Assembly: GCA_031179215.1 (NCBI GenBank)
Contig: JAPSIA010000020.1
Span: forward strand, 1-32,212
Direction of reading: 5' to 3'
DNA: 32,212 bases
Source: Agrococcus sp.
GTDB lineage: Bacteria > Actinomycetota > Actinomycetes > Actinomycetales > Microbacteriaceae
Below the pieces are notes generated by a model, which did no database searches, had not been told where the DNA came from, and worked only from the letters and a program-made list of their open reading frames with translations. The position numbers and the translations under genes were made by a program. Positions 23,520 through 29,054 of this stretch are shown piece by piece. Every line of letters starts with the position of its first letter. Positions within the stretch are counted from its first letter, which is position 1.

Positions 23520-23601
23520 TGCCGGTGGTGGGACTCGAACCCACACTCCTCGCGGAAGCGCAGTTTGAGTGCGCCGCGTCTGCCAATTCCGCCACACCGG
23601 C
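23520..23601 (-). tRNA. tRNA-Leu, anticodon CAA
   Basis: Read on the minus strand, the acceptor stem GCCGGTG pairs with CACCGGC, with discriminator A at 23520. The D arm reads TGGCGGAATTGGCAGACGC. The anticodon stem GCGCA/TGCGC holds the loop CTCAAAC with anticodon CAA (decodes UUG). A class-II long variable arm (TTCCGCGAGGA) and the T arm GTGGGTTCGAGTCCCAC follow. CCA is not encoded, since the next bases are CGG. The long variable arm and CAA anticodon agree on leucine. UUG is a rare codon in DNA this GC-rich. Confidence 0.97.
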
Positions 23602-23634: not shown

Positions 23635-23647
23635 CACTAGGCTAGTG
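23635..23647. promoter_or_regulatory. Palindrome holding overlapping divergent -10 elements for tRNA-Leu (-) and pdtaR (+)
   Basis: CACTAG-G-CTAGTG is a 6-1-6 palindrome. On the plus strand it contains TAGGCT (23638-23643), ending 7 bases before the pdtaR ATG. On the minus strand it contains TAGCCT (23644-23639), placing a start about 30 bases upstream of mature tRNA-Leu. Both polymerases cannot occupy it at once. Confidence 0.55.
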
Positions 23648-23650
23648 GTC

Positions 23651-24289
23651 ATGACCGATGACCTCTTCGCAGAGCCGCAGCTCGACACGACCGATGCCGC
23701 GAGCGCGTCGACCGCCCGCACCGTCCTCGTCGCCGAGGACGAGTCGCTCATCCGCCTCGACATCGTCGAGACGCTGCAGGCGGCCGGCTACGAGGTCATC
23801 GGCGAGGCCGGCGACGGCGAGCGCGCCGTCGAGCTCGCGACCGAGCTCAAGCCCGACCTCGTCGTCATGGACGTCAAGATGCCGAAGATGGATGGCATCA
23901 CGGCGGCCGAGAAGATCGGCGCCGCGAAGCTCGCGCCCGTCGTGCTGCTGACCGCGTTCAGCCAGAAGGAGCTCGTCGAGCGCGCGGGCGAGGCCGGGGC
24001 GCTCGCCTACGTCGTCAAGCCCTTCACGCAGAACGACCTGCTGCCGGCGATCGAGATCGCGCTCGCGCGCTGGGACCAGATCCGCGCGCTCGAGAGCGAG
24101 GTCGCCGACCTCGCCGACCGCTTCGAGACCCGCAAGCTCGTCGACCGCGCCAAGGGCCTGCTCAACCAACGCATGGGGCTCGCGGAGCCCGAGGCGTTCC
24201 GCTGGATCCAGAAGGCGTCGATGGACCGCCGCCTGACGATGGGCGAGGTCGCGCAGGCCGTCATCGAGCAGCTCGGCTCGAAGAAGTAG
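23651..24289 (+). CDS. pdtaR: ANTAR-domain response regulator, PdtaR type
   Basis: A 212-residue two-component response regulator that in mycobacteria (PdtaR, partner PdtaS) acts by binding RNA and preventing termination. The receiver domain (about 23-140) has the acidic pocket VLVAEDES, the phospho-acceptor Asp74 in VVMDVKMPKMDG, the LLTAFSQ switch residue and Lys123 in YVVKPF. A helical linker leads to the ANTAR domain (about 148-208; LVDRAKGLLNQRMGLAEPEAF, then RRLTMGEVAQAVIEQL). No histidine kinase gene is adjacent, which is usual for this family. The ATG at 23651 is set by the TAGGCT hexamer 7 bases upstream, predicting a leaderless mRNA; an in-frame extension upstream would run through the tRNA. 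Confidence 0.93.
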   Translation: MTDDLFAEPQLDTTDAASASTARTVLVAEDESLIRLDIVETLQAAGYEVIGEAGDGERAVELATELKPDLVVMDVKMPKMDGITAAEKIGAAKLAPVVLLTAFSQKELVERAGEAGALAYVVKPFTQNDLLPAIEIALARWDQIRALESEVADLADRFETRKLVDRAKGLLNQRMGLAEPEAFRWIQKASMDRRLTMGEVAQAVIEQLGSKK

Positions 24290-24320: not shown

Positions 24321-24350
24321 CGGGCGCCCGCACCGCTCGGCGCCCCGCGC

Positions 24351-24550
24351 CCGAGTGGCGCCTCCGGTGCCCGAGTGGCGCTTCCGGTGCTCGAGTGGCG
24401 CTTCCGGTGCTCGAGTGGCGCTTCCGGTGCCCGAGTGGCGCCTCCGGTGCTCGAGTGGCGCCTCCGGTGCTCGAGTGGCGCCTCCGGTGCCCGAGTGGCG
24501 CCTCCGGTGCCTGAGTGGCGCCTTCGGCGCCTGAGCGGCGCCCCGGCGCG
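24351..24550 (+). repeat. Tandem array 1: about ten copies of a 20-bp unit
   Basis: Unit CCGAGTGGCGCCTCCGGTGC, repeated at exactly 20-base steps. The first eight copies vary almost only at position 1 (C/T) and position 12 (C/T); copy 9 is diverged and copy 10 degenerate. Each unit can form a small hairpin (GGCGCC, loop TCC, GGTGCC with one G-U pair). Because 20 is not divisible by 3, the frame changes with each copy, so it is not a protein repeat. There are no unique spacers, so it is not CRISPR. It lies between pdtaR and the DUF559 gene. The reverse complement is related to array 2. Confidence 0.93.
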
Positions 24551-24585
24551 GGCCGCCTTCCGTTGAGACGATCAGGCACGGAGCA

Positions 24586-24626
24586 TGGACAGCGCAGCTT
24601 GTCCACAGCAGCGCCGCGACGCTGCT
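24586..24626 (+). promoter_or_regulatory. Two short inverted repeats and a DnaA-box-like TTGTCCACA upstream of the DUF559 gene
   Basis: TGGACA-8 bases-TGTCCA (24586-24605) is followed by AGCAGCG-6 bases-CGCTGCT (24607-24626). TTGTCCACA at 24599-24607 spans their junction and equals the DnaA-box consensus used in high-GC Actinobacteria. A single box is no origin. It could be an operator for the DUF559 gene, which starts at 24659. A weak -10-like CACGAT (24647-24652) sits 6 bases before that ATG. Confidence 0.4.
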
Positions 24627-24658
24627 CGCGCAAGCAACGGCTCGCGCACGATGTCCGC

Positions 24659-25540
24659 ATGGACTCCTCTTCCGGCTTCACGGTCCGTGCCGGGCTCGAG
24701 CGCGGGTACTCCGCCGCCGAGCTGCGCTCGGCCGCGTTCACGAGACCGGCGCGCGGGGCACGCGTCTCGGCGGCGGTCGGCGACGAGGGCAGCGCGTTGC
24801 TCGAGGCGGTGCGCGCGCTCGCGCAGCGCGACCAGTTCTTCTCCCACACGACGGCCGCCCGCCTCCATGGCATGCCGTTGCCGCCGCGCCTGCAGGCGGA
24901 GGGCCGTGTGCACATCGCATCGCCGACCGGCCGGGCACGCATGCAGCGGCCCGGAGTGGTCGGGCACCGCATCAAGTCGCGCACGGTCGAAGTCGACGGC
25001 ATGCGCGTGGAGTCCCGAGCAGATGCGTTCGTGCACCTCGCGACGATGCTGAGCGTCGAGGAGCTCGTCACGATCGGGGACTGGCTGGTCTCTCCGAGCC
25101 GGCAGGAACCGCTCACGGTCGAGGACCTCAGGGATGCGGTGCGTCGATACGGCGGAGCACGCGGCCTCAACCGAGCGCGCCGGGCGCTCGCGCTCGTCCG
25201 GGTGGGCGCCGAGTCGCCGCGGGAGTCGCTGCTGCGCCTGCTCATCATCGGGTCCCTGCCCGAGCCGGTGCTGCAGCACGAGGTCTTCGACACCTCCGGC
25301 ACGTTCATCGCGCGGCTCGACCTCAGCTGGCCGAGCCTGAAGCTCGGCGTCGAGTACGACGGCGAGCACCACGAGGATCCTGAGCAGCGGGCGCGCGACG
25401 AGCGCCGGCTCGAGCGGCTTCGGGCGCAGGGGTGGCACATCATCGTGGTGACGAAGCACGACCTGCGCGACGGCGGCGCGGCGATGCTCGAGCGGATCGT
25501 CGCCGCGCATCGGCGCTACTCCTCGTGGGCGGCCGCCTGA
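24659..25540 (+). CDS. DUF559-type (Vsr/PD-(D/E)XK-like) nuclease-domain protein with AbiEi-like N-terminal region
   Basis: A 293-residue protein of a family common in Actinobacteria, function not established. The N-terminal half resembles AbiEi-type antitoxin/winged-helix regions (FFSHTTAARLHGMPLPPR near residue 60-77, then ESRADAFVHLATMLSVEELV). The C-terminal part looks like a DUF559 nuclease fold: ESPRESLLRLLIIGSLPEPV, then Asp221 in RLDLSWP, Glu232 and Asp234 in VEYDGEHHED, and the helix-strand GWHIIVVTKHDL. Asp221 and Glu232 are the candidate metal-binding residues. No toxin partner is adjacent. The ATG at 24659 was chosen because upstream in-frame sequence runs into repeats. It is isolated between two 20-bp repeat arrays and converges on the thioesterase gene. 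Confidence 0.75.
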   Translation: MDSSSGFTVRAGLERGYSAAELRSAAFTRPARGARVSAAVGDEGSALLEAVRALAQRDQFFSHTTAARLHGMPLPPRLQAEGRVHIASPTGRARMQRPGVVGHRIKSRTVEVDGMRVESRADAFVHLATMLSVEELVTIGDWLVSPSRQEPLTVEDLRDAVRRYGGARGLNRARRALALVRVGAESPRESLLRLLIIGSLPEPVLQHEVFDTSGTFIARLDLSWPSLKLGVEYDGEHHEDPEQRARDERRLERLRAQGWHIIVVTKHDLRDGGAAMLERIVAAHRRYSSWAAA

Positions 25541-25690
25541 GCGACGGCGCGAAGAGGCGGCTGCGCTGCAGCGGCCAGCGGACGCGCGCCGGCGCGGTGC
25601 GCGCGTTCGTCGACGCTCCGCGGCGCTACGGCTGCCGTGGAGGCGCGACGCGCGGTGCGCGGGTGCTACCCCGTGCCGGACGACGCCGAT

Positions 25691-25870
25691 GGGTGCGCGG
25701 ACGCGCCACTCGGTGCTGGGAGATGCCAGTGGGTGCTGGGAGCCGACAGTGGGTGCTGGGAGACGCCAGTGGGTGCTGGAAGCCGCCACTCGGTGCTGGG
25801 AGGCGCCACTCGGTGCTGGGAGCCGCCACTCGGTGCTCGGAGCCGCCACTCGGTGAGGCGCCAGTCGGCG
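25691..25870 (+). repeat. Tandem array 2: about seven clear plus two degenerate copies of a 20-bp unit
   Basis: Unit CGGTGCTGGGAGCCGCCACT at exact 20-base steps from 25711 to 25850, with degenerate copies at each end. Units 1-3 end in AGT and units 4-7 in ACT. The copy at 25791 (CGGTGCTGGGAGGCGCCACT) matches the reverse complement of an array-1 unit at 15 of 20 positions, all differences falling in positions 4-8. The two arrays are therefore related in opposite orientation, either side of the DUF559 gene. The array occupies the convergent gap before the thioesterase gene. Bases 25541-25690 before it show nothing else beyond a weak GCCGCCT/AGGCGGC pairing at the DUF559 stop. Confidence 0.9.
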
Positions 25871-25925: not shown

Positions 25926-26357
25926 TCAGCGGGACTTGATGAAGTTGGTGATGCGCAGCGTCGAGGCGCGGCGGCCCTCGTCGTCGGTGCACACGACCTC
26001 GTGCACCGTCATGGAGCGGCCGAGGTGCACGGCCTTGCACTCGGCCGTGACCCATCCGCTCTCGATCGAGCGCGTGTGCGTCGCGTTGATGTCGGTGCCG
26101 ACCGCGTAGCGGCCCTCGCCGGCGTGGATGTTCGCGCTCACCGAGCCCAGCGTCTCGGCGATCACGCAGTACGCGCCGCCGTGCACGAAGCCGACCGGCT
26201 GCTTGTTGCCCTCCGCGGGCATGCGCGCGATCGAGTGCTCGGCCGAGAGCTTGAGGAACTCGATGCCCATCCGCTCGGCGAGCTGGCCGCCGGGCCTGCC
26301 GTCGCGCCGCTCGAGCAGCGCGCGCGTCGCCTCGTCGGTGTCGTGGGGCAGGGTCAT
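25926..26357 (-). CDS. PaaI/YbdB-like hotdog-fold thioesterase
   Basis: A 143-residue acyl-CoA thioesterase of the PaaI/EntH/MenI group. The key helix reads GFVHGGAYCVIAETLGS, with His59 and the catalytic acid Glu68 in the places used by 4-hydroxybenzoyl-CoA-type hotdog enzymes. The GTDINATHTRSIESGWVTAE and VHLGRSMTVHEVVC strands complete the fold. The substrate is not determined; hydroxynaphthoyl-CoA, phenylacetyl-CoA and general housekeeping are all possible. It is transcribed away from polA with only 51 bases between them. A CAGCCT hexamer (26402-26397 on this strand) overlaps the polA -10. An upstream extension on this strand would run antisense to polA and is rejected. Confidence 0.9.
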   Translation of the reverse strand: MTLPHDTDEATRALLERRDGRPGGQLAERMGIEFLKLSAEHSIARMPAEGNKQPVGFVHGGAYCVIAETLGSVSANIHAGEGRYAVGTDINATHTRSIESGWVTAECKAVHLGRSMTVHEVVCTDDEGRRASTLRITNFIKSR

Positions 26358-26408: not shown

Positions 26409-29054
26409 GTGTCGGACACGAAGCCTACCCTCATGGTCATCGACGGGCATTCGCTCGCGTTCCGGGCGTTCTTCGCCCTCCCGCTCGAGAACTTCGTCAA
26501 CGCCGAGGGGCAGCACACGAACGCCATCCACGGCTTCCTGTCGATGCTGCTCAAGCTGCTCCAGGACCACAAGCCCACCCATCTCGCGGTCGCGTTCGAC
26601 ATCTCGCGCCACTCGTTCCGCACGCGGGAGTACCCCGAGTACAAGGGCACGCGCGACGAGACCCCGAAGGAGTTCAAGGGGCAGGTGCCGCTGCTCGAGG
26701 AGGCGCTCCACGCCATGGGCGTGCGCACCATCTCGAAGGAGGACTACGAGGCCGACGACATCCTCGCGACGCTCTCGGTCGAGGGCCCCAAGGCCGGCAT
26801 GGACGTGTACGTCGTCTCGGGCGACCGCGACACGATCCAGCTCGTCAACGAGCACGTGACGCTGCTCTACCCGGCGGTCCGCGGCGTCTCGGAGCTCAAG
26901 CACTACACGCCGGAGACCGTGCGCGAGCGCTACGGCATCGAGCCCGAGCAGTACCCCGAGATCGCCGCGCTCGTCGGCGAGACGAGCGACAACCTCGTCG
27001 GCATCGACAAGGTGGGCGAGAAGACGGCCGTCAAGTGGATCAAGGAGTACGGCACCGTCGAGAACCTGCTCGCGCACGCGGAGGAGATCAAGGGCGTCGT
27101 CGGCAACAACCTGCGCGAGCAGCGCGAGCGCGCCGAGCGCAACCGCCGGCTCAACAAGCTGCTCACCGACGTCGACCTCGGCCTCGAGCTCACGGAGCTC
27201 GAGCGCGGCAAGGTCGACGAGGCGAGGCTGCGCGAGATCTTCCAGCGCCTGCAGTTCCGCACGCTGCTCGACCGCGTGCTCAAGCAGGAGGGCAGCGGCG
27301 AGGCAGCCGCGGCGCTCGAGCCCGAGGTGCGCGCGCCCGCGGTGCAGAAGCTCGTCGACGAGGAGCTCGACCTCTGGCTCGAGCGCGCGACCGACACGGT
27401 CGCCGTCTCCATCACGCCCGACGACGCCGACGGCATCGCCGGCTTCGGCCTCGCGACCGAGGGGCTGAGCGTGTACGTCCCCTACAAGGCGGGCACGGGC
27501 GACTACGTCGGCTTCAAGCGCTGGCTGGCATCGGATGCGCCCAAGGCGGTGCACGACGCGAAGGTCGTCATCAAGGCGCTCGAGCGCGCAGGCCTCGAGA
27601 TCGGCGGCGTCGTGCACGACACGCGCATCCTCGCGTGGATGACGACGCCGACCGCGCCGCCGAAGACCTTCGAGCTCGACTGGCAGACCGAGGCGCTGCT
27701 CGGTGCGCCGCTGCCGACGCCCGACCCCAACCAGCTCGTGCCGGCGGTCGACCCCGAGCAGGTCGCCACGGTGGCGTGGCTCACGGGCGAGCTCGCCCGC
27801 GCCCAGCGCACGCGCGTCGACGAGGGCACGCTCGGCGTGTTCGACCGCATCGAGCTGCCGCTCACGCCCGTGCTCGCCCGCATGGAGCGGCAGGGCGTCG
27901 CGATCGACCGCGACGTGCTCCAGCGCATCCACGCGGCGATGCGCGAGCAGGCCGCGCTCCACGCCGAGGCCGCGTACGCCGAGATCGGCCGCGAGGTGAA
28001 CCTCGGCAGCCCCAAGCAGCTCCAGGCGGTGCTGTTCGACGAGCTGCAGATGCCGAAGACCCGCGCGACGAAGACGGGGTACTCGACCGACGCGCAGGCG
28101 CTCGCCGACCTGCAGGAGACGAATCCGCACCCCTTCCTGGGCCTCCTGCTGCAGCATCGCGAGACGACGAAGCTCGCGCAGATCATCGAGACGCTCCTGA
28201 AGGCGATCCACCCCGACGGCCGCATCCGCACGCGCTACGACCAGACGGGCTCCGCCTCCGGTCGACTCTCCTCGAACGACCCCAACCTCCAGAACATCCC
28301 CGTCCGCACGGAGGTCAGCCGCGAGATCCGCTCGGCGTTCGTGCACGGGGAGGGCTTCGAGACGATGCTGACCGCCGACTACTCGCAGATCGAGATGCGC
28401 ATCATGGCGCACCTCTCGGGCGACGAGGGGCTCATCGAGGCCTTCAACTCGGGCGAGGACCTGCACCGCTTCGTCGGCAGCCGCATCTTCGGCGTCGACC
28501 CGAGCGAGGTGACGGCGCTGCAGCGCGTGAAGGTCAAGGCGATGAGCTACGGGCTCGCCTACGGCCTGAGCGCGTTCGGGCTCTCGAAGCAGCTGCGCAT
28601 CTCGCAGGCCGAGGCCAAGCAGCTCATGCTCGACTACTTCCAGCGCTTCGGCGGGATCCGCGACTACCTCCGCGGCGTCGTGCAGCAGGCCAAGGAGGAC
28701 GGCTACACGACCACGATCTACGGTCGTCGCCGGCCGTTCCCCGACCTCGCCTCCTCGAACCGCGTGCTGCGCGAGAACGCGGAGCGCGCGGCGCTCAACT
28801 CGCCGATCCAGGGCTCCGCCGCCGACATCATCAAGCGCGCGATGCTCGCGATCGACCGCCGCATCACCGAGGAGGGGCTCGGCTCGCGCATGCTGCTGCA
28901 GGTGCACGACGAGCTCGTGTTCGAGGTCGCGACGGGGGAGCGCGAGGCGCTCGAGGCGATCGTGCGCGAGGAGATGGGCGGTGCCGCCGAGCTCTCGGTG
29001 CCGCTCGACGTGCAGGTCGGCGTCGGCGCCAACTGGGACGCCGCCGCGCACTGA
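26409..29054 (+). CDS. polA: DNA polymerase I
   Basis: Gap-filling and Okazaki-fragment polymerase, 881 residues. The N-terminal 5' nuclease has LMVIDGHSLAFRAFFAL, the acidic EDYEADDILAT and VVSGDRDTIQLVN, and the GEKTAVKWI helix-hairpin-helix. The middle exonuclease-like domain lacks the DxE and other metal ligands of E. coli, so 3'-5' proofreading is expected to be absent, as in other actinobacterial PolA. The polymerase domain has motif A DYSQIEMRIMAHLSGD (Asp657), motif B with Lys710 and Tyr714 (KAMSYGLAYG) and motif C QVHDELVFEV (Asp834). Tyr714 stands where E. coli has Phe762. The GTG at 26409 is set by the -10 element 7 bases before it; upstream in-frame sequence belongs to the minus-strand thioesterase. 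Confidence 0.97.
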   Translation: MSDTKPTLMVIDGHSLAFRAFFALPLENFVNAEGQHTNAIHGFLSMLLKLLQDHKPTHLAVAFDISRHSFRTREYPEYKGTRDETPKEFKGQVPLLEEALHAMGVRTISKEDYEADDILATLSVEGPKAGMDVYVVSGDRDTIQLVNEHVTLLYPAVRGVSELKHYTPETVRERYGIEPEQYPEIAALVGETSDNLVGIDKVGEKTAVKWIKEYGTVENLLAHAEEIKGVVGNNLREQRERAERNRRLNKLLTDVDLGLELTELERGKVDEARLREIFQRLQFRTLLDRVLKQEGSGEAAAALEPEVRAPAVQKLVDEELDLWLERATDTVAVSITPDDADGIAGFGLATEGLSVYVPYKAGTGDYVGFKRWLASDAPKAVHDAKVVIKALERAGLEIGGVVHDTRILAWMTTPTAPPKTFELDWQTEALLGAPLPTPDPNQLVPAVDPEQVATVAWLTGELARAQRTRVDEGTLGVFDRIELPLTPVLARMERQGVAIDRDVLQRIHAAMREQAALHAEAAYAEIGREVNLGSPKQLQAVLFDELQMPKTRATKTGYSTDAQALADLQETNPHPFLGLLLQHRETTKLAQIIETLLKAIHPDGRIRTRYDQTGSASGRLSSNDPNLQNIPVRTEVSREIRSAFVHGEGFETMLTADYSQIEMRIMAHLSGDEGLIEAFNSGEDLHRFVGSRIFGVDPSEVTALQRVKVKAMSYGLAYGLSAFGLSKQLRISQAEAKQLMLDYFQRFGGIRDYLRGVVQQAKEDGYTTTIYGRRRPFPDLASSNRVLRENAERAALNSPIQGSAADIIKRAMLAIDRRITEEGLGSRMLLQVHDELVFEVATGEREALEAIVREEMGGAAELSVPLDVQVGVGANWDAAAH

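Follow-up and report, generated by a model that had tools for sequence, protein, structure and literature searches.

A DUF559 gene between inverted 20-bp repeat arrays in Agrococcus: a candidate gene-bearing locus of a REP/RAYT-like repeat system

The analysed stretch of DNA (the window) comprises 32,212 nucleotides of contig JAPSIA010000020.1 from Agrococcus sp. (assembly GCA_031179215.1; genome G000 below, 2.56 Mb, 88% complete). It carries a gene of the DUF559/MTES_1575 type between two arrays of 20-bp units, bordered by a response regulator gene on the left and by a thioesterase gene on the right, after which polA follows at 26409 (Table 1). Both arrays are intergenic with respect to the predicted genes and flank a single CDS, with no other predicted gene between them; the isolated gene between non-coding arrays reported in a preliminary description of the sequence was thereby borne out. 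The sole match in an Rfam scan of the window was a tRNA.

Table 1. Features at the DUF559 locus and its surroundings (window coordinates).
Feature	Position	Strand	Remarks
tRNA gene	23520-23601	-	Rfam match; directly before the response regulator gene
Response regulator with ANTAR domain (left neighbour)	23645-24289	+	Present at the site across the genus
Left array, 10 units x 20 bp (GAGTGGCGCCTCCGGTGCYC)	24353-24552	+	Points towards the gene; final unit degenerate
DUF559 / MTES_1575-type gene, 293 aa	24659-25540	+	Predicted AbiEi-like N-terminal domain and homing-endonuclease-like C-terminal domain (~200-290)
Right array, ~8 units x 20 bp (GAGTGGCGSCTCCCAGCACC)	25699-25855	-	
4HBT (PaaI-like) thioesterase (right neighbour)	25926-26357	-	At the site in 24/24 Agrococcus genomes

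TRF placed array 1 at 24349-24546 (period 20, 9.9 copies, 93% matches) and array 2 at 25699-25855 (period 20, 7.8 copies, 86% matches, with a 40-bp period too), and a degenerate copy extends the right array to 25866. The units follow one another head-to-tail without spacers. Left and right arrays have a common core and differ in a 7-bp tail. The core GAGTGGCGCCTCC, allowing up to two mismatches, was matched 17 times in the window against 4.7 expected, a number reached in none of 100 shuffles, and its matches lie on the plus strand within array 1 and on the minus strand within array 2. TRF and the strand search together confirmed two 20-bp arrays, inverted relative to each other, around the DUF559 gene. 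The 15-of-20 match previously given between the two unit types holds for array-1 units ending in GTGCCC, whereas units ending in GTGCTC match at 14 of 20 positions (hand count). A CRISPR array was ruled out by the 20-bp units without spacers and by the absence of cas genes among the neighbours, and type III toxin-antitoxin repeats by the lack of spacers and by the presence of arrays on both sides of the gene and at sites without it.

In searches against Pfam the protein reached 22.5 bits for DUF559 (PF04480), above the cut-off of 20.6, and 28.4 bits for MTES_1575, below the family cut-off of 38.2. No match to a Y1 transposase was found for the window protein. The full-length structure model had a pLDDT of 93 and a pTM of 0.87, and Foldseek returned no solved structure matching it at E ≤ 0.001. 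The C-terminal part matched the catalytic domain of I-Bth0305I (3r3p) at rank 2 in Foldseek, with a probability of 1.00, a TM-score of 0.72 on the target and E = 0.035, and 3hrl was matched with a probability of 0.69 in the structure search. Sequence profiles matched 3hrl (E = 1.9e-5), I-Bth0305I (a weak match, E = 0.022) and PvuRts1I (E = 0.038). Residues D221, E232, G235, H238 and D247 were invariant in an alignment of 31 sequences, which left out L068 and L092 (in-frame stops), L100 (a fragment), L073, L076, L102, L103 and L106. The motif D-x(8,12)-E-[YF]-[DEN]-G-x2-H was present in 48 of 57 further loci, in a search that covered all six frames of whole loci and could thus include a chance match.

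Residues 1-190 were modelled with a pLDDT of 88 and best matched the AbiEi antitoxin 6y8q (E = 9.7e-5, probability 1.00), at a TM-score of only 0.43 and an rmsd of 8.4. When three proteins were scanned with the PADLOC AbiEi profile, the L089 paralogue alone matched (E = 1.3e-5), and the window protein did not. Judging from the models, the product is probably a two-domain protein, AbiEi-like in its N-terminal part and Vsr-like or homing-endonuclease-like in its C-terminal part. The predicted fold of the catalytic domain and the conserved acidic and histidine residues resemble those of Vsr-like (EDxHD) homing endonucleases such as I-Bth0305I. Unlike these, the DUF559 gene is intergenic and splits no target, and whole copies of its repeat stand on both sides. 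The resemblance to AbiE type IV toxin-antitoxin systems lies in the predicted N-terminal fold and in inverted half-sites of about 20 bp; however, no AbiEii nucleotidyltransferase adjoins the gene, and a nuclease domain is fused instead. AbiEi is described as binding two 23-bp inverted repeats with 3 bp spacing (23-3-23; PMC3985639).

The site defined by the response regulator, the thioesterase and polA was compared in 23 other Agrococcus genomes and G000. The DUF559 gene occupies it in 19 of the 24 genomes (G000 included) and is missing in G002, G003, G009, G012 and G015. The preliminary description had held that close relatives with the gene and without the arrays would speak against a link; matching inverted repeats were present on both sides of the gene in 19/19 genomes, with scores of 24.5 to 206. 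TRF arrays were detected on both sides in 14 of these 19, on one side in G014 (whose sequence stops at a contig end), G017 and G023, and on neither side in G007 and G008, where only a few repeat copies match around the gene. In the five gene-less genomes the two neighbours are separated by a gap of about 15 to 215 bp, in some cases with a plain hairpin, and no arrays lie between them, so that gene and arrays are absent together. Insertion of the gene into a pre-existing gene-less pair is unsupported, since the five gene-less sites carry no arrays.

In a small tree of the three neighbour genes, G002 joined G010 and G018 (0.90), G009 joined G001 (1.00), and G003, G012 and G015 formed a separate clade. 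Because the gene-less genomes are split across this tree, absence of the gene seems to have arisen more than once. Over 12 orthologues, identity was 73-78% for the DUF559 protein; the regulator reached 90-95% and the thioesterase 80-93%. The unit at the gene varies by species: it is TGGCGCC in most genomes, TGGTCA-like in G001, G005 (as CGGTCA) and G020, and TGGCCA in G010, G018 and G021. An earlier view that arrays exist only in the TGGCGCC form was dropped after the orthologous loci had shown these other variants. At the orthologous site of G005 (L068), the DUF559 gene is broken by a stop and both arrays are retained, possibly a recent loss of the enzyme.

Beyond this site, the tandem core pattern matched 95 + 87 times in G000, compared with 16 + 14 matches for the reversed pattern. 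Fourteen further places in the genome were read: 12 are arrays between predicted genes, and two (L020 and L022) are single matches inside predicted genes. A genome-wide search of the kind that had been suggested located the unit at a minimum of 12 further loci (at least 12 gene-less array loci, between unrelated genes). At 11 of these 12 the arrays form pairs facing each other (-> <-) around a centre of 0 to ~130 bp, and L012 is a single array. Among the G000 array loci read, the window alone has a gene between the arms. Since the unit is dispersed between unrelated genes, the arrays are not exclusive to DUF559, and the idea of DUF559-exclusive arrays was ruled out by these copies. Arrays scattered between unrelated genes with no excess near DUF559 had been named as grounds for doubting a link; the scattered arrays do exist, but DUF559 genes are enriched for matching flanks, as detailed below.

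A search of 60 genomes (24 of Agrococcus, including G000, and 36 outside it) found abundant core matches in the genus only; the 36 others had 0 to 3 matches per strand, like the reversed control (0 to 4). When named genomes were scanned with a pattern of 20 specified bases, 42 stretches were returned: 39 from Agrococcus, and single ones from Methylobacterium soli, a member of Opitutaceae and a member of Prevotellaceae. The stretch from Methylobacterium soli, a bacterium of a different phylum (L042:3296-3405), contains three exact matches to the tandem core of Agrococcus, one every 40 bp, and may reflect chance, convergence or transfer.

Within the genus, forward matches to tandem TGGCCA numbered 45 in G010, 21 in G023, 19 in G021, 13 in G008, 9 in G018, 4 in G007 and 1 in G017, with none in the other 17 of the 24 genomes. 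Tandem TGGTCA occurred in 9/24 genomes, most often in G001 (20 + 17). In these variant searches the reversed control gave 7+7 matches in G016; its high counts in G021 (22+28) and G008 (17+18) arise because the arrays of these two genomes fit the reversed pattern too. In most cases the genome-wide variant equals the one at the gene; G020 departs clearly from this, with TGGTCA arrays at the gene and mainly TGGCGC tandem matches genome-wide, and G007 is mixed. Recent expansion, one of the two sources that had been proposed for the internal homogeneity, is not the whole account of the arrays, because unit variants vary with the species and are mostly those found in arrays at other sites of the genome.

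The five gene-less genomes were searched with a general pattern and with three variants of the core: the general pattern gave 0 or 1 match, TGGCCA and TGGTCA gave 0, and the TGGCGC pattern gave 0 to 2. The resulting contrast between genomes with and without the gene (arrays in 19/19 against 0/5; Fisher's test, p = 2.4e-5) is overstated by this p-value owing to kinship among the genomes, the incompleteness of G009 and G003 (65% and 78% complete), possible further unit variants, and G018, where the repeat matches may sit largely at the gene itself.

Association with flanking repeats was then scored at DUF559 genes elsewhere. For Microbacteriaceae loci, 450 bp to the left of the gene were matched with the reverse complement of 350 bp to the right, and the threshold score of 14 was the maximum among 150 cross-locus controls. 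In the Agrococcus, G000-control and within-genome tests the gene end was located with a crude stop rule, under which L092 scored 9 although its flanking repeats match by eye. Close Agrococcus paralogues (44-58% identity) at other sites, whose neighbours are presumably typA, ispG/rseP and purK/purE, scored above 14 at 11 of 13 loci, and some have units of 31-32 bp. A distant Agrococcus DUF559 clade (33-39%), which includes the second G000 copy, has flanking repeats in 2/7 loci only.

Relatives at E ≤ 1e-15 were found in 51/80 Microbacteriaceae genomes. In a first set of 28 loci, which includes L135 with a right flank of 21 bp, 20 scored above 14 and 10 above 19. A further 20 loci read with their surroundings exceeded 14 in 15 cases, compared with 4/216 control genes (Fisher's test, p = 2.9e-16), and exceeded 19 in 9 cases, compared with 1/216. 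Control genes of G000 scored above 14 in 6/75 cases, with a maximum of 19. One Microbacteriaceae control gene (L155:5923-6726 in G105), HAD-phosphatase-like and not DUF559, lies between similar palindromes with a score of 34. In view of the G000 controls above 14 and of this control gene, scores near the threshold are weak. In a class-wide sample, homologues were present in 136/197 Actinomycetes genomes, and 21/29 loci scored above 14 (16/21 outside Microbacteriaceae), in a set that comprises DUF559 loci only, among them L167 and L181, whose left flanks are short. The matching element in the stronger cases is a hairpin with a stem of about 20 bp, found on both sides.

Flanks were also compared within genomes. 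In 30 genomes with at least two loci read, same-locus flanks scored above 14 in 52/70 cases and cross-locus flanks in 6/108 (p = 1e-22, a value that treats the loci as independent, which they are not); above 19 the counts were 37/70 and 0/108. The remaining 18/70 loci have no same-locus match above 14. A favourable subset of 17 picked genomes gave 39/41 versus 5/70, and only the 30-genome figure is taken as evidence. Each DUF559 gene tends to have its own flanking element, hereafter its cognate repeat X. Gene and repeats are strongly linked, by inverted X on the flanks, by an X specific to the paralogue, by dispersed X with the same core and by their joint absence from five genomes. The functional link to the gene, offered originally as an inference, has now gained comparative support from the orthologous site, the control genes and the paralogue-specific flanks.

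One way to explain the arrays without such a link is to regard them as selfish or neutral minisatellites, grown by slippage and gene conversion, which DUF559 genes just tolerate or whose hot spots they mark. Variable copy number and internal homogenisation of the arrays agree with this, as does the patchy occupation of the gap between hisS and eno, which holds an array pair in G000, arrays in G004 and G013, and none in 18 of the 20 other genomes read (3/21 occupied, G000 included). G003 and G015 lie outside this reading; in G019 a match sits a short way upstream of eno, judging by its coordinates. We nevertheless consider minisatellites very unlikely: such flanks are rare at control genes, X differs per paralogue, the unit variants mostly track species genome-wide, and the arrays are absent together with the gene. 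In the same hisS-eno gap, G010 and G018 (L189 and L190) have in common a different hairpin (TGAGGTGG..CCACCTCA), perhaps the palindrome that goes with another DUF559 paralogue.

Outside Agrococcus, dispersal was followed in the genus g139, for a single arm. This arm, GTYGATCATGGAGAAG, which comes from the sequences flanking loci L163, L164 and L168, occurred 4 to 87 times in 8/10 g139 genomes and in 0/8 genomes of other genera, and its reversed form was never found. Most copies (42+45) are in G254, where at least 31 pairs (62/87 arms) are arranged plus then minus about 45 bp apart; G264 has four such pairs among 38 arms. Seventeen chosen G254 pairs form 60-61 bp hairpins between predicted genes, 10 of them between convergent genes. 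At five of the 17 (L224, L226, L233, L236 and L238) the hairpin overlaps the predicted end of the adjoining gene by about five bases and may thus provide its stop codon. Where arms bracket 0.7-1.2 kb, a DUF559 gene lies between them at L222 and none was found at L220 or L221.

G254 itself has only one weak DUF559 match (E = 1.6e-17; 12 of 135 candidates scored), which, in the genome with the most arms, argues against a simple dependence of copies on the gene. Such a copy-rich genome would suit a different enzyme, for example a RAYT/IS200-type transposase, moving the repeats, with DUF559 as a passenger or a palindrome repair factor. This is the least probable of the explanations considered, given that the window has no further predicted gene between its arrays and that X is alike on the two sides of a locus and varies among DUF559 paralogues within a genome.

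The hairpins themselves raise the question of transcription: X could be a bidirectional terminator or an RNA-stabilising hairpin that fences the gene by chance. Four gene-less pairs are predicted to fold into very long hairpins (-227 to -421 kcal/mol for 320-531 nt, computed without a shuffle control), and the convergent neighbours seen in G254 recur at 3 of the 9 array loci of G000 that have a gene on either side. However, one G000 pair (L009) stands between divergent genes, and the match between the two palindromes that flank a gene, as measured by the within-genome test, is left without an account. The left and right arrays of the window, moreover, differ in their 7-bp tail, and the property conserved is therefore not perfect pairing of the arms. 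A role confined to transcript ends is accordingly judged improbable.

If the protein were instead a regulator or autoregulator, X would represent AbiEi-type operators and the dispersed copies a regulon, with the sequence kept by selection for binding and without copying. The predicted AbiEi fold of the N-terminal part favours this, and AbiEi represses its own promoter via inverted repeats (PMC3985639). Unit positions 1-13 are also better kept between the G000 arrays (identity 0.785) than positions 14-20 (0.47), in a set of 33 'arrays' that includes some reverse-strand echoes, and proteins bound in a row would fit a 20-bp period. Against this stand the presence of X downstream of the gene as well, the location of those 10 G254 copies away from promoters, between convergent genes, and the conserved nuclease motif and the turnover of the hisS-eno position, for which regulation alone does not account. 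We regard operators as an unlikely explanation of the whole pattern.

A closer parallel is offered by REP and REPIN palindromes, which are common bacterial repeats and to which, in the papers cited here, RAYT is the only enzyme class tied. According to those papers, RAYT genes are located between two inverted REPs with which they co-evolve, their presence correlates with REP abundance, their position is stable while the protein evolves fast, and the E. coli rayt has BIME-2 on its flanks (PMC2817692); RAYTs are inherited vertically (PMC8049555), and the CGTC family of REPs has no association with transposase genes (PMC3733652).

DUF559 loci resemble REP/RAYT systems (PMC2817692, PMC8049555) in that the gene is enclosed by its palindrome in two inverted copies, if not at every locus; in that the palindrome differs among paralogues and changes while the gene position stays; and in the dispersal of inverted-pair copies between genes, seen in G000, other Agrococcus and g139. 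The gene is likewise less conserved than its neighbours, and it is rare on phages (1/50,697 records) and plasmids (4/72,556 records). A phage or plasmid element was ruled out by this near-absence of matches. The systems differ in their enzyme, here AbiEi-like with a nuclease domain by prediction rather than an IS200/IS605-type Y1 tyrosine transposase, in the long tandem arrays formed by the half-sites in Agrococcus, and in the absence of a GT(A/G)G head, the arms starting with GAGTGG, GATTGG, GTYGATCATGG and others (by eye, without a statistic). Since the enzyme is unrelated, the DUF559 system is not a member of the REP-RAYT family; by analogy, it may work like RAYT. The BIMEs of enterobacteria are similar in combining REP-type units into intergenic mosaics and different in unit sequence, in enzyme and in lacking the strict 20-bp period.

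We therefore favour, with a probability of roughly 60%, the reading that the window contains the gene-bearing locus of a REP/RAYT-like repeat system built on a nuclease that is unrelated to RAYT and both recognises its own palindromes and propagates them. The gene for the putative two-domain protein sits between two inverted copies of its cognate X, whose half-site of about 20 bp would have grown into tandem arrays in Agrococcus; inverted pairs of these arrays without the gene are dispersed between other genes. In the most likely mechanism, the protein would bind X half-sites and nick or cut DNA at X, after which repair copying would spread and homogenise X, as is held for RAYT on REP/REPIN. 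The core of such a mechanism would be an inverted-repeat binder fused to a nuclease and encoded between inverted repeats. Binding, cutting and copying, and with them the direction of causation, are what we infer from the comparative pattern. Of the roles offered in the preliminary description, the evidence best fits sites recognised by the enclosed protein and the termini of a small mobile islet.

The comparisons suggest a previously undescribed enzyme-driven repeat system, and no description of DUF559 with flanking palindromes was found in the open-licence literature searched. Chances seem evenly balanced that AbiEi-DUF559 fusion nucleases constitute, across Actinomycetes, a second, RAYT-independent class of palindrome-propagating enzymes, whose private palindromes would be recognised via the AbiEi domain and spread by nicking or cutting and repair copying. 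DUF559/AbiEi proteins, which are widespread, would gain a testable role through such private cognate palindromes, and several natural enzyme-site pairs within one genome could be used for specificity work.

Other repeat types were noted among the Agrococcus paralogues. L106 and L107, of the distant clade, have flanking hairpins with GGTACC. In a purK/purE-like neighbourhood, L098 (whose left flank is low-complexity sequence close to a contig end) and L100 have a 32-bp unit (TGGTCACGACACGCCG...) beside DUF559 paralogues, one of which is a fragment.
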